This document shows positions 47,669-53,327 of a DNA stretch of 64,000 nt, in pieces. Numbering within the stretch: position 1 is the stretch's first letter; every line of letters starts with the position of its first letter. The notes below the pieces were generated by a model. The model did not search any database. It was given only the letters and a program-made list of their open reading frames with translations, and was not told the DNA's origin. Made by a program: the position numbers and the translations under genes. The DNA lies in assembly GCA_002069785.1 (NCBI GenBank), contig MWCA01000001.1, positions 124,001 through 188,000 on the forward strand. The letters run 5' to 3'. This DNA is from Lentisphaerae bacterium ADurb.Bin242. GTDB lineage: Bacteria > Verrucomicrobiota > Lentisphaeria > Victivallales > UBA1829.

Positions 47669-50290
47669 TCATTTTCCGTAGTAGGCGCGGAGATACATTT
47701 CCTTGATTTCGGTGATCAGCGGATACCGGGGATTCGCCCCGGTGCACTGGTCGTCGAAGGCCATTTCGGAAAGTTCATCCAGTTGCGCGAGGAACTCTTT
47801 TTCGGGAACCCCGGCCTCCCGGATAGTCTTCGGAATCGCAAGGCGGTCCTTGAGCGCTTCGACCGCGGCGATGAGCTTTTCAACCTTTTCCTCTTCGGTC
47901 TTGCCGCCGAGCTGGAGGAAATCCGCCAGGTTCGCATACCGTTCGACCGCCTCCGGGCATTTGTACTGGGAGAACGTGCCCTGCTTGGTCGGCTTGCGCG
48001 TGGCGTTGAAGCGGATCACTTCGGTGATCAGCAGCGCGTTGGCGAGGCCGTGCGGCATGTGGAACGCGGCTCCGAGCTTGTGCGCCATGGAGTGGCAGAC
48101 GCCCAGGAACGCATTGGCAAACGCCATTCCGGCGATGGTCGAAGCATGGTGGACCTTCTCCCGCGCCTTTTCATCCTTGAGCCCGTTTTCATAGGCGGCG
48201 GGCAGATATTTGAAGAGCAGGCGGGCGGCTTCGCGCGCCATGCCGTTGGTGAATTCCGAGGCGAGGATGGAGACCCGGGCTTCCAGCGCGTGGGCCAGGG
48301 CGTCGATGCCGGAATGGGCGGTCAGCTTTTTGGGCATGTTCATGACCAGTTGCGTGTCGATGATCGCCATATCGGGCGTGAGTTCGTAATCCGCAAGCGG
48401 ATACTTGACTCCGGTTTTCTCATCCGTGATCACGGCGAACGGCGTGACTTCGCTTCCCGTGCCCGACGTGGTCGGAATGGCCACCAGCGTGGCCTTGGTT
48501 CCCAGTTTCGGGAATCGGAACACCCGTTTGCGGATGTCCATGAAGCGCATCGCGATGTCTTCAAAATGAATGTCCGGATGTTCATACATCAGCCACATGA
48601 TCTTGGCCGCATCCATCGGGGAGCCTCCGCCGATGGCGACGATGGTGTCGGGGTGGAACTGGTTCATGCGTTCCACTCCGCGCCGGGCGCAGTCGAGGGT
48701 CGGGTCCGGAGCGACATCGGAAAACACTTCCGTTTTCATGCCCAGTTCCTCGAGGGTGTCGATGGCGCCCTGCAGCATCCCGCTCTCGTCGAGGAAGCGG
48801 TCGGTGACGACAAACGCGCGTTTGCGGCCGTCTTCCTTGAGGTCGCGAAGAGCCTCGCGGAGGCATCCGTATTTGAAGTAGACTTTTTCCGGCACGCGGA
48901 ACCACAGCATGTTTTCTCTCCGTTTTGCAATCGTTTTGATGTTCAGAAGGTGTTTCGGGGCGACGTTCTGGCTGACCGAGTTTCCGCCCCAGCTTCCGCA
49001 TCCGAGCGTCAGCGACGGATCGAGCTTGAAGTTGAAGACATCTCCGATTGCGCCCTGGCTCGAAGGCATGTTGATCAGGGTGCGTGCCGTGTTCATCCGC
49101 CGCCCGAACTCCGCAATGCGCTCCTTGTTGGTCGGATCGGTGTAAAGCACGCTGGTGTGTCCCAGTCCGCCGTAGTTCAGCAGGGCTTCCGCGTTTTCCA
49201 GCGCCTCCTTGTAATCCTTGACTTTGTAGAGGGCCAGGACGGGCGAAAGTTTTTCGCGGCTGAAAGGATGATCCAGCCCGACGCCTTTGGTTTCCGCGAT
49301 CAGCACCTTGGTGTGCTCCGGAACCTTCAGCCCGGCCATCTCGGCGATCTTGTCGGCGCTCTGCCCGACGATCTTGCCGTTGAGCTTGCCGTCGATCTGG
49401 ATGACGTCGCCGAGGGTCTTGGCCTCCTTGGCGTTCAGGATGACGGCGCCGCGCTCGACGAACTCCTTTTTGACCGCGTCATAGATCGATTCCACCACCG
49501 TGACCGACTGTTCCGAAGCGCAGATCATGCCGTTGTCGAAGGTTTTGCTCTGGAGGACCGAGCTGACCGCCATCTGGATGTCGCAGGTCTCGTCCATGAT
49601 GACCGGGGTGTTTCCCGCGCCCACGCCCACGGCCGGCGTTCCGCTCGAATAGGCCGCCTTGACCATGCCCGGCCCGCCGGTCGCAAGGATCAGGCTGATG
49701 TCCGGGTGGCTCATCAGGTGCTGGCTCATGGAGACGGTCGGATTGTCGATCCAGCCGATGATGTTTTCCGGTGCGCCGGCTTTGACCGCAGCCTCCAGGA
49801 CGATCCGGGCCGCTTCGATCGTGCTCTTTTTCGCACGGGGATGCGGGCTGAAGATGATCCCGTTCCGGGTCTTCAGCACGATCAGCGACTTGAAGATCGC
49901 CGTCGAGGTCGGGTTGGTGGTCGGCACGATCCCGGCGATCACGCCCAGCGGTTCGGCGACTTTCACGATTCCGAACGCTTCGTCCTCTTCGATGACCCCG
50001 CAGGTCCTGTAGTTGCGGTATTTATTGTAGATCGATTCCGATGCGAAGTGGTTTTTGATGACCTTGTCTTCCACGACCCCCATGCCGGATTCGGCCACGG
50101 CCATTTGCGCAAGGGGGATTCGCGCGTTGTTGGCGGCCAGTGCGGCGGCGCGGAAAATGGCATCCACCTGCTCCTGGGAGTAATCCGCATAAATCTCCTG
50201 GGCCGCCTTGACTTTCGCTACGATCTGATCCAGCTCCCGGCGTTCGAGTTCCTCCTGGGGCACATCCGGTTTCAGGTTTTTCTCATTCAT
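47669..50290 (-). CDS. adhE: Bifunctional aldehyde/alcohol dehydrogenase AdhE
   Basis: 873 residues, the normal length. The N-terminal aldehyde dehydrogenase half has the catalytic Cys in FDNGMICASEQSV near residue 247 and AGNTPVIMDE. The C-terminal iron-dependent alcohol dehydrogenase half shows GGGSPMDAAKIMWL, the TSGTGSEVTPFAVITDE segment and the metal ligand region GVCHSMAHKLGAAFHMPHG. It reduces acetyl-CoA to ethanol, recycling NADH in fermentation. AAAGGAGG lies seven bases before the ATG. Single gene with its own terminator. Confidence 0.97.
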   Translation of the reverse strand: MNEKNLKPDVPQEELERRELDQIVAKVKAAQEIYADYSQEQVDAIFRAAALAANNARIPLAQMAVAESGMGVVEDKVIKNHFASESIYNKYRNYRTCGVIEEDEAFGIVKVAEPLGVIAGIVPTTNPTSTAIFKSLIVLKTRNGIIFSPHPRAKKSTIEAARIVLEAAVKAGAPENIIGWIDNPTVSMSQHLMSHPDISLILATGGPGMVKAAYSSGTPAVGVGAGNTPVIMDETCDIQMAVSSVLQSKTFDNGMICASEQSVTVVESIYDAVKKEFVERGAVILNAKEAKTLGDVIQIDGKLNGKIVGQSADKIAEMAGLKVPEHTKVLIAETKGVGLDHPFSREKLSPVLALYKVKDYKEALENAEALLNYGGLGHTSVLYTDPTNKERIAEFGRRMNTARTLINMPSSQGAIGDVFNFKLDPSLTLGCGSWGGNSVSQNVAPKHLLNIKTIAKRRENMLWFRVPEKVYFKYGCLREALRDLKEDGRKRAFVVTDRFLDESGMLQGAIDTLEELGMKTEVFSDVAPDPTLDCARRGVERMNQFHPDTIVAIGGGSPMDAAKIMWLMYEHPDIHFEDIAMRFMDIRKRVFRFPKLGTKATLVAIPTTSGTGSEVTPFAVITDEKTGVKYPLADYELTPDMAIIDTQLVMNMPKKLTAHSGIDALAHALEARVSILASEFTNGMAREAARLLFKYLPAAYENGLKDEKAREKVHHASTIAGMAFANAFLGVCHSMAHKLGAAFHMPHGLANALLITEVIRFNATRKPTKQGTFSQYKCPEAVERYANLADFLQLGGKTEEEKVEKLIAAVEALKDRLAIPKTIREAGVPEKEFLAQLDELSEMAFDDQCTGANPRYPLITEIKEMYLRAYYGK

Positions 50291-50647: not shown

Positions 50648-50687
50648 TTGACTTTGGAAAAAAATGGAATATAATGGTATAAATTGG
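50648..50687 (+). promoter_or_regulatory. mraZ promoter with four in-phase TGG repeats (likely MraZ operator)
   Basis: TTGACT (50648-50653), 16 bases, TATAAT (50670-50675). TGG triplets, three followed by A and one by T, occur at 50655, 50665, 50675 and 50685, exactly 10 bases apart. MraZ proteins bind direct repeats of the TGGGN type with 10-base period at their own promoters, so this is very likely an autoregulatory site. The repeats cover the spacer and the start site. Confidence 0.75.
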
Positions 50688-50700
50688 AATAGGAGCGGCC

Positions 50701-51180
50701 ATGCTGGCTTTCTGCGGTATTGACAGATGTCTCCTGGATGCAAACGGAAGATTGAAGTTCAGTCCGCGTGTTCTGGAGGATTTTGCCCGGTGCGGCAGTG
50801 AGGTTGTTTTACACTGTCTGCCCGAGGGTGCGATTGCCGTATACCCGGAAGAGTTTTACCGCCAGATGCGTTCCGCGGAACCCAATCCGGCGGAAAAGGT
50901 TTCGCAGAGCATGCTTTACCGCAGCAGTCTCCGGCGTTTCGGCGCCTGGAGCCGTTCCGAGAAGATTTCGGCGCAGGGACGGATCACGATTCCCCAGGAG
51001 TACCGGGAACAGGCGGGGCTGAAAAACGGCGCCGTAGTGGTCGTGGGGGTGGAAGTGGGCGTGGAAATCTGGGACCGGGAGCGCTGGATGGAAGAACAGC
51101 GGACAGGCATGGAGCACGCCCGTGAAAAAGGCGAGCGGGAAATGGCGTCCGACCTGATGGTTCAAGAGCAGAAAAATTGA
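50701..51180 (+). CDS. mraZ: MraZ transcriptional regulator
   Basis: 159 residues with two AbrB-type half-barrels: DANGRLKFSPRVL near residue 13 and ISAQGRITIPQEYREQAGL near 88. The second has the usual MraZ form; the first lacks some consensus residues. MraZ heads the division and cell-wall cluster in most bacteria and represses it. AGGAG lies six bases before the ATG. The usual next gene, rsmH, is not present; instead a small membrane protein follows. Confidence 0.92.
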   Translation: MLAFCGIDRCLLDANGRLKFSPRVLEDFARCGSEVVLHCLPEGAIAVYPEEFYRQMRSAEPNPAEKVSQSMLYRSSLRRFGAWSRSEKISAQGRITIPQEYREQAGLKNGAVVVVGVEVGVEIWDRERWMEEQRTGMEHAREKGEREMASDLMVQEQKN

Positions 51181-51225
51181 TTGTCGGCGAATACGAAACG
51201 GAAATTTGAGATCAGGAGGTGAAAG

Positions 51226-51507
51226 ATGAACGCATTCCGAAAAATGGACCCGCGCATGCGCTACGCGTTTGCCGCAATGCTGGTTGCGGTGTCCTTTCTC
51301 CTTCTGGGCGCGGGTCGGCTCGGAGAAGGTTTTTCCACCCGGAGCGAAGCGAATGCCAGGGCGAAAGAGGAATGGCGCGAGGCGGCCGGGAAGTTGTGTG
51401 CCGGGGGTGTTTCCAGAGAAAAAGGAGATTGGGAACGCATTGTGAAGTCCCATCCGGAAATCCTGCTGAAAGCATTTCACAGTGACCTGAAGGTTCAGCA
51501 GGAGTAA
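51226..51507 (+). CDS. Small bitopic membrane protein at the FtsL position
   Basis: 93 residues. A basic N-terminus, one transmembrane helix (AFAAMLVAVSFLLLGAG, about 14-30) and a short charged external part. This is the location and topology of FtsL, but there is no leucine-zipper pattern long enough to call it that. AGGAGGTG precedes the ATG. It is probably part of the same transcript as the PBP-pedestal and FtsW/RodA genes. Confidence 0.6.
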   Translation: MNAFRKMDPRMRYAFAAMLVAVSFLLLGAGRLGEGFSTRSEANARAKEEWREAAGKLCAGGVSREKGDWERIVKSHPEILLKAFHSDLKVQQE

Positions 51508-51526
51508 TAGCGGAACGGGCAGGAAC

Positions 51527-52225
51527 ATGTCTGCCGACACCTTCAAAATTAAAACATTGATGATCCTTTCTTTCCTGTTGATATGGGCGGTCGTTGCGGC
51601 CGCCCATGTCTTTTCCTATGCGGTTTACCGGCAGGACGACCTGCTGAAGGCCTCCCGTGCGATCGCCTGGCGCGAGGCCCGGATTCCGGCGGTCCGGGGA
51701 CGCCTGCTGGACCGGGAAGGGGTCCCTCTGGCGGTTTCTTCCATCCGCAGCGACCTGGTCCTGGAAACCTTTCCGGAAAAGGCCGGACGCCGGGACGCCC
51801 TGGCCCGGCTTCTCCGGGAAGTTTTTCCGGACCGTGCAGCGGACTGGGAAAAGGAATCGTTTCCGCTGGTTCTCCGGAAAAACATCTCCCCGGAAGAGGT
51901 GGTTTTGTATTCACGCCGGTTCCGGAGATTTCCGGAACTGCGGGTCGTCAGCCGCCTGGAGCGGATCGTTCACGGCAGCCCGGAGGTGCGGCGGCGGGTC
52001 GGCGCCGCCGCGCTGAACAATGTGAATGAACTGGTGGGCGTATCGGGATTGGAACGGGAACATGACCTGGCGCTTTCGGGGAAGGCGGGGACTCTGGTGG
52101 TCATGCTGGACCGCAACGGTTCCTGGCTCTACAACACTCTCCGCATCACAAAGCAGCCGGAAAACGGACGGGATGTCCGCACGGATATTTCCTTGAAGGA
52201 ACTGGGGGAAGACCATGAAAAATGA
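51527..52225 (+). CDS. FtsI/PBP2-like pedestal protein without a transpeptidase domain
   Basis: 232 residues. A transmembrane helix at about 12-30 (MILSFLLIWAVVAAAHVF) is followed by the class B PBP dimerisation or pedestal region: RIPAVRGRLLDREGVPLAV near residue 53 and VSGLEREHDLALSGKAGTL near 180. Then VVMLDRNGSWLYN matches the strand just before the catalytic domain. The protein ends there; no S-x-x-K, S-x-N or K-T-G motif exists. The stop lies inside the overlap with the next gene, so this is not truncation by sequencing error nearby. In FtsI the pedestal activates FtsW. Confidence 0.8.
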   Translation: MSADTFKIKTLMILSFLLIWAVVAAAHVFSYAVYRQDDLLKASRAIAWREARIPAVRGRLLDREGVPLAVSSIRSDLVLETFPEKAGRRDALARLLREVFPDRAADWEKESFPLVLRKNISPEEVVLYSRRFRRFPELRVVSRLERIVHGSPEVRRRVGAAALNNVNELVGVSGLEREHDLALSGKAGTLVVMLDRNGSWLYNTLRITKQPENGRDVRTDISLKELGEDHEK

Positions 52226-53327
52226 TCCCGTGACATCCTCCTGGTTCCGTTCGTTTTCCTCCCGGAAGAAACTGTTTCCCATGGGAGCGGCGCTGATCCT
52301 CGTGGTCGCCGGATTGTTCGGGTGCCTGGCGATTTACAGCTCGCGCACCTTGTCGGATCAGCCGTTGTTTTTTGTATTCAAGCAGATGCTCTGGCTCTTC
52401 CCGGGGATTGCCGTTTTTCTCGCGGCGGCGGCGGTTCCGTTCCGCTTTTACCGGAGGGTTGCCCCGTGGTGGTTTCTCCTGAGCGTGATTTCCCTGATTG
52501 CGGTCTATCTGTTCGGACATGAGATCAACCACATGCGGGGCTGGTTCTCCCTGGGACACGTCCACTTCCAGCCGTCCGAATTCGCAAAATGCTCCCTTCT
52601 GCTGTATCTGTGCGTCTATTGCGGAGCCCGGAAGGAACTCTCCTTTCTCCGGCTGGCCTACCTCTTTCTGGTGAGCTTCGGGAGCATGATCCTCATCATG
52701 CTGGAACCCGACTTCGGAGGCGCACTGATGTTCTTCGTGGCGTTCATTCTGGTGATTTTTCTGCGGGGAGTCCGCTTTCACTACATTCTGGCCGCATTCG
52801 GATTCCTGGCGGTCAGCGCGGCCGTTTTCATCCTTTTCAACGAATACGCGCTGATGCGGATTCTGGGGTATCTGAATCCGGACGGCATTTTCAGCGCCAG
52901 CGCCTGGCACATCAAGCAGTTCCAATATACGATGGCACACGGCGGCTGGACCGGTTCCGACTGGGGAAACGCCCTCTGGTCCGGGGCTTTCCTGCCGTAT
53001 CCCCACACGGATTCGCTGTTCGCCTCGATCGTGGAATCGACCGGGTTTGCGGGCGGCCTCATCGTGATCGCCGGATTCGTGGCGATGGGAATCGGATTCT
53101 GCGTGCTTTCATGGGACATCCGTTCCGGAGATGACACCCGCCGCTTCTACGTGTTTTCCGCGGGAGCCCTGTACCTGATCCAGGCGCTGATCCATATCGG
53201 CGTAAACAGCGTGCTCCTGCCGCCGACCGGGGTCACTCTCCCCATTCTCAGCTACGGCGGCAGCTCGCTGTTTTCCGTAATGCTCGCCTTCGGGATCGCC
53301 TTCAGCGCCGCGAATGCGAAGGAATGA
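52215..53327 (+). CDS. SEDS-family peptidoglycan polymerase (FtsW/RodA)
   Basis: 370 residues, ten transmembrane helices. The SEDS signatures are present: HFQPSEFAKCSLLLYLC near residue 118, MLEPDFGGALMFF near 160 with the catalytic Asp, and GVTLPILSYGGSSLFSVML near 340. It polymerises glycan strands together with a class B PBP. FtsW and RodA cannot be told apart by eye; the mraZ context favours FtsW. It overlaps the PBP-pedestal gene by 11 bases, so the two products are probably made in fixed ratio. Confidence 0.92.
   Translation: MKNDPVTSSWFRSFSSRKKLFPMGAALILVVAGLFGCLAIYSSRTLSDQPLFFVFKQMLWLFPGIAVFLAAAAVPFRFYRRVAPWWFLLSVISLIAVYLFGHEINHMRGWFSLGHVHFQPSEFAKCSLLLYLCVYCGARKELSFLRLAYLFLVSFGSMILIMLEPDFGGALMFFVAFILVIFLRGVRFHYILAAFGFLAVSAAVFILFNEYALMRILGYLNPDGIFSASAWHIKQFQYTMAHGGWTGSDWGNALWSGAFLPYPHTDSLFASIVESTGFAGGLIVIAGFVAMGIGFCVLSWDIRSGDDTRRFYVFSAGALYLIQALIHIGVNSVLLPPTGVTLPILSYGGSSLFSVMLAFGIAFSAANAKE

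Follow-up and report, generated by a model that had tools for sequence, protein, structure and literature searches.

What does a class B penicillin-binding protein (bPBP) do beside a SEDS gene if it stops short of its transpeptidase domain? That a SEDS protein is switched on by the pedestal of its bPBP rather than by the transpeptidase is an idea drawn from mutants and structures in a few model species. The window analyzed here, a 64,000-nucleotide stretch of the 5.97 Mb draft genome of Lentisphaerae bacterium ADurb.Bin242, carries such a gene, and all coordinates are positions in this window. Four genes transcribed in the same direction, coding for a MraZ-family protein (MraZ2), a bitopic protein, a pedestal-only protein and a SEDS protein (SEDS3), form a cassette that with its operator spans 50655-53327 (Table 1). 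The pedestal and SEDS3 genes overlap by 11 bases in different frames; a previous sequence-only reading of this DNA had placed the four open reading frames and the overlap in the same way, and its coordinates and lengths are reproduced. We note that an AdhE-like gene, read as coding for an 873-residue bifunctional aldehyde-alcohol dehydrogenase (47669-50290, minus strand), ends beside the cassette but is not a conserved neighbor of it.

Table 1. Features of the cassette, in window coordinates.
Feature	Position	Strand	Basis
Sigma-70-like promoter (predicted function), TTGACT - 16 bp - TATAAT	50648..50675	+	Read from sequence
MraZ operator, four boxes, TGGAA-N5-TGGAA-N5-TGGTA-N5-TGGAA, period 10	50655..50689	+	Array search
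mraZ2, MraZ-family regulator, paralogue of the dcw mraZ, 159 aa	50701..51180	+	Pfam PF02381
Bitopic membrane protein, 93 aa, conserved family of unknown function	51226..51507	+	Alignment
Pedestal-only class B PBP homologue, 232 aa: one TM helix and PBP_dimer, without transpeptidase domain	51527..52225	+	
SEDS3, third SEDS-family polymerase (predicted), 370 aa, putative catalytic Asp266	52215..53327	+	PF01098

The pedestal protein matches the PBP_dimer domain over residues 53-200 (Pfam PF03717, 3.4e-10, 41 bits against a cut-off of 24.4). There is no Pfam match to the transpeptidase domain PF00905 in the gene and no S-x-x-K in the translation, and the protein does end without a transpeptidase domain, as had been proposed. 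As predicted from its sequence it has the transmembrane helix and PBP_dimer domain of a class B PBP and lacks the SxxK, SxN and KTG motifs of the transpeptidase, and since that domain is missing we do not file it as a transpeptidase. The AlphaFold2 model (mean pLDDT 92.5) consists of a helix at residues 3-34 followed by the pedestal domain; Foldseek ranks PBP2 from the RodA-PBP2 complex (6pl5_B) first, and the alignment to PBP3 covers residues 53-229 of that protein (Z 13.3). The family profile matches P. aeruginosa FtsI (residues 14-225, E 6e-21) and ends where the transpeptidase domain starts. An Ala-Trp-Arg motif is conserved in the family at the segment that matches the FtsW-activating helix of FtsI, which lies at S61-L62 in E. 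coli (PMC8998562), a correspondence that is our own transfer of residue numbers.

An assembly error or a decaying gene is one possible account of a truncated protein, and the absent transpeptidase domain is all that speaks for it. Intact pedestals with the same boundary and with lengths of 195-262 aa are present in 34 relatives from independent assemblies, two of which are single-contig genomes (G036 and strain zth2, CP071032.1/G187). In close pairs with unsaturated dS, dN/dS is 0.10-0.26 for the pedestal and 0.09-0.20 for SEDS3, values that indicate purifying selection on both. No transpeptidase remnant lies downstream, because the SEDS start falls inside the pedestal gene. The conserved length, the dN/dS values and the single-contig occurrences therefore rule out frameshift or decay, and we regard this explanation as extremely improbable. 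The sequence-only reading had named two observations that would tell against its own proposal: a downstream frameshift that restores a transpeptidase, which the conserved length in independent assemblies rules out, and a full-length version of the gene in relatives, which did not occur. Its view that the gene is maintained holds on the dN/dS values, on the conservation of the gene pair throughout the order, and on the joint loss with SEDS3 described below.

The same reading placed the cassette in the position of the division cluster, and this part of it does not stand. Gene calling by codon scoring in this GC-rich genome locates mraZ1-rsmH-ftsL-ftsI on contig C40, ftsW-murG on C23, rodA on C89, and mreC-mreD-PBP2 on C1 just upstream of the window. 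None of rsmH, ftsL, ftsI or the mur genes is linked to the cassette, those genes being located on C40 and C23. The full-length FtsI that was to be looked for elsewhere in the genome is the 650-aa product on C40, with a complete transpeptidase. Replacement of FtsI or of the dcw cluster by the cassette is thus rejected, and since FtsI, PBP2, FtsW and RodA are all present elsewhere, the cassette is an extra, third system. In total the genome has three SEDS genes against two full class B PBPs, with the pedestal protein as the third partner.

A search of the 61 nearest genomes recovers pedestal-only open reading frames in most of them; the gene recurs across the order Victivallales and, within the class Lentisphaeria, in most of the families sampled. 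Among 388 genomes of the phylum, strong matches in short frames are confined to Lentisphaeria; outside the class the pedestal matches are weak and lie within full-length PBPs. The four-gene order is the same at 21 loci (counting the window) with different surrounding genes, so that both gene order and length, which the earlier reading had put forward for comparison among relatives, are conserved; the pedestal-SEDS3 pair is adjacent or overlapping throughout the order, and mraZ-(bitopic)-pedestal-SEDS is still present in more distant families of the class. In quick trees built without bootstrap, a single branch separates SEDS3 from the FtsW and RodA proteins of the same genomes (SH-aLRT 100), and likewise the pedestals from FtsI and PBP2 (SH-aLRT 98).

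The two genes also tend to be present or absent together. Three SEDS genes are present in 10 of 12 pedestal-bearing genomes and at most two in all 13 tested genomes without a short pedestal, in which the best SEDS score is 236 bits, compared with at least 454 for the SEDS3 proteins of the order. Pedestal and SEDS3 have been lost jointly at least four separate times: in genus g5, in family f8, and in parts of g13 and f5. A different arrangement is seen in family f9 (G096, G165 and G348; loci L219, L220 and L221) and in G196 (L222), which have mraZ2-bitopic-pedestal without an adjacent SEDS gene, and the G096 genome has a single SEDS gene in total; the pairing is therefore not absolute. Elsewhere in the class, two genomes that probably belong to Lentisphaera (f11 g59; L282 and L283 in G246 and G230) code for a RodA-type SEDS of 482 aa, with an insertion of about 100 residues in the ECL4 region just after the R246 motif, and as a result the Pfam match to this one gene is in two pieces.

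SEDS3 is a member of the SEDS family by both profile and fold. It matches FTSW_RODA_SPOVE (Pfam PF01098, 3.5e-63), its best PDB sequence match is P. aeruginosa FtsW (E 6e-65), and its model (pLDDT 87.1) matches FtsW 8bh1_A in Foldseek with a TMq of 0.78, together with a weak match to the O-antigen ligase WaaL (7tpg). It scores below the NCBIfam cut-offs for FtsW (TIGR02614, 215.9 bits against 337.5) and RodA (TIGR02210, 215.1 bits against 336.7) and falls outside both clades; by cut-off and clade the predicted protein is an orthologue of neither. Among positions essential in E. coli FtsW (PMC8765783; E. coli numbering is used here), W138, Q147, P196, G199, Y242, R246, D297, G371, Y379, G380 and G381 are kept in 30-32 of 32 SEDS3 sequences. 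Glu150 and Asp197 are kept as well; the putative catalytic Asp297, D266 in the window protein, is kept in 30 of the 32. Four changes are a signature of the family, A135 to M, R137 to G, R243 to an aliphatic residue and F298 to S, and the second Glu of the E-E motif is replaced by A or S. Arg137 and Arg243 are both needed for E. coli FtsW (PMC8765783). The FtsW and RodA proteins of the same organisms have A135, F298 and E-E intact, and their RodA is already variable at 137 and 243. As a separate observation, Lentisphaeria FtsW proteins (L189-L198) have Lys or Arg at Pro196, which is conserved in other SEDS, and residue 242 is often not Tyr.

The regulator at the head of the cassette matches the MraZ domain (PF02381, 4e-14, 52.8 bits against a cut-off of 23) but falls short of the equivalog cut-off of TIGR00242 (33.6 against 98.35), and its orthologues in the order are 52-71% identical and lie beside the same genes. 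The TGGAA-type array is unique in the window, where 0.01 would be expected by chance, and the promoter overlaps the boxes as in an autoregulated operator. Known MraZ systems likewise combine an MraZ-family protein with direct repeats of period 10 at the promoter of its gene; in E. coli the canonical box is TGGGN with 5-nt spacers. Arrays of three to five period-10 TGG boxes, mostly TGGAA, lie directly upstream of 25 of the 26 cassette mraZ genes, whereas the dcw mraZ1 genes of the same organisms have mostly AGGGG-type arrays, and this difference suggests that the two MraZ paralogues probably run separate circuits. In four genomes (G041, G045, G187 and G052) mraZ2 and the bitopic gene lie together at another site and no boxes precede the pedestal-SEDS pair, which refutes the notion that MraZ boxes precede every such pair. 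The proposal that the cassette is MraZ-controlled thus fits the window, with its perfect MraZ operator, but does not extend to those lineages; MraZ control, as read from the operators, would be common and not obligatory. We also note that in two genomes of family f8 (G042 and G054; L286 and L287) mraZ2 remains although the bitopic protein, pedestal and SEDS3 were not found, and that G042 mraZ2 still has four TGGAA-type boxes. This survival without the rest of the cassette suggests that MraZ2 may have other targets.

The bitopic protein has an invariant G28 and P77 in an alignment of 23 sequences and no NCBIfam match. Comparison of its profile with FtsL of the same organisms gives an hhalign probability of 1% over 10 columns, with no homology found, and its identification as FtsL is rejected; a bitopic topology is all that the two have in common.

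The wider set of glycan polymerases in these organisms is small. GT51, the glycosyltransferase of class A PBPs, is absent from 19 of 27 Lentisphaeria genomes and is represented by one gene of 730-822 aa in the other eight; the GT51 enzyme of the window genome is PBP1C-like. It follows that SEDS proteins are probably the main or only glycan polymerases where GT51 is absent, and an additional SEDS protein may be of greater importance in these organisms than in E. coli. Compensation by SEDS3 for absent class A PBPs is rejected, since cassette presence is not correlated with GT51 absence: GT51 occurs in 3 of 14 genomes with the pedestal and in 5 of 13 without it, these five all belonging to one genus.

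We rate the cassette as a variant of the SEDS-bPBP synthase and not as a separate kind. Like the FtsW-FtsI divisome synthase it joins a SEDS protein to a single-pass pedestal protein, its best PDB sequence matches are P. aeruginosa FtsW and FtsI, and here too mraZ lies upstream; unlike it, the cassette is without a transpeptidase domain, is outside the dcw cluster, and has a SEDS and a pedestal in clades of their own, the SEDS below the FtsW cut-off. It resembles the RodA-PBP2 elongasome synthase in the top structural match of the pedestal model and in a Thr at the K370 site of SEDS3, and differs from it in the missing transpeptidase domain, in not being beside mreC and mreD, and in a SEDS below the RodA cut-off. 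The partners of extra SEDS paralogues, such as in SpoVE-SpoVD, are full transpeptidases, unlike the cassette pedestal. A third SEDS with its own partner and a specialized role is nevertheless a likeness to SpoVE-SpoVD and to the multiple FtsW/RodA proteins of Listeria (PMC6686043). A survey of dcw clusters in the PVC group records only the conservation of dcw genes in Lentisphaerota (PMC12283558), and no description of a pedestal-only bPBP was found in the portion of the literature searched, whose coverage takes in few subscription papers and preprints.

We think it moderately probable that the cassette encodes a dedicated third peptidoglycan glycan polymerase, kept active by a pedestal that has no transpeptidase and regulated independently of division. 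SEDS3 would polymerize lipid II, a putative glycosyltransferase activity for which the conserved SEDS catalytic residues and fold argue. The pedestal protein would bind the ECL4 and transmembrane region of SEDS3, as the pedestals of FtsI and PBP2 do with their partners, and hold it in the active state. Because no transpeptidase is tethered to SEDS3, its strands would either stay free of cross-links or acquire them at a later time or another place through FtsI, PBP2 or other enzymes. The operon in the window would be autoregulated by its own MraZ paralogue through the TGGAA boxes and, being separate from the AGGGG circuit of the dcw MraZ, could be turned on or off independently of division. In vitro, FtsW is still activated by FtsI that is catalytically inactive (PMC8998562), so that the transpeptidase is not needed for activation and a transpeptidase-less activator is plausible. 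The third-polymerase reading draws on the intact and confident pedestal fold, the profile that ends at the FtsI transpeptidase boundary, adjacency, joint loss, the parallel third clades, purifying selection, the SEDS residues kept and the operators; against it are the changes at Arg137, Arg243 and the second Glu of E-E, and the f9 and G196 pedestals without an adjacent SEDS.

Those last observations could also be taken to mean that the pedestal is a regulator or decoy for the canonical synthases: it would compete with FtsI or PBP2 for access to FtsW or RodA and so dampen their activity, and SEDS3 would be an inactive partner, a scaffold or a sink for lipid II. Division genes are known targets of the MraZ family, which would suit such a role, as would the loss of two arginines essential in FtsW. 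We consider this unlikely, since pedestal and SEDS3 are adjacent in the order and lost together, the pedestal clade is distant from FtsI and PBP2, and SEDS3 is under purifying selection with its catalytic Asp nearly always kept. The active-site and ECL4 changes (A135M, R137G, R243 to aliphatic, F298S), mostly absent from FtsW and RodA of the same organisms, could instead reflect a substrate that is not standard lipid II but another lipid-linked precursor, for example one for an exopolymer or for a modified glycan that never undergoes cross-linking, and hence no transpeptidase would have been kept. WaaL, too, has the SEDS fold. The core SEDS residues are kept, however, and no precursor-synthesis genes recur beside the cassette, whose flanks vary between genomes, and a different substrate seems to us improbable.

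A split synthase is a further alternative, in which FtsI, PBP2 or, where present, the PBP1C-like enzyme docks on SEDS3-pedestal and supplies the transpeptidase in trans, so that the complex is not a non-cross-linking one. Transpeptidase domains in full-length proteins were found in all 61 relatives searched, and GT51 enzymes in the eight genomes above would be available as well. The pedestal would already occupy the bPBP binding site, though, and the cassette is not linked to any separate gene for a transpeptidase, which makes this arrangement very unlikely.

The dedicated third polymerase can be put in a broader form, as a class-wide third type of SEDS synthase in which polymerization is permanently uncoupled from transpeptidation, the pedestal is a dedicated activator, the MraZ circuit is insulated, and most hosts are without class A PBPs; this we hold tentatively, and put a little short of an even chance. 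The cassette offers a minimal SEDS-plus-pedestal complex for structural work, and mraZ1 and mraZ2 are an example of MraZ regulators that were duplicated and whose operators have diverged. It also gives a way to ask what purpose uncross-linked or later cross-linked glycan serves. Nature seems here to have run the transpeptidase deletion and to have kept the product across a bacterial class, and the pedestal-SEDS3 cassette suggests that the making of wall strands and their cross-linking can be run separately.
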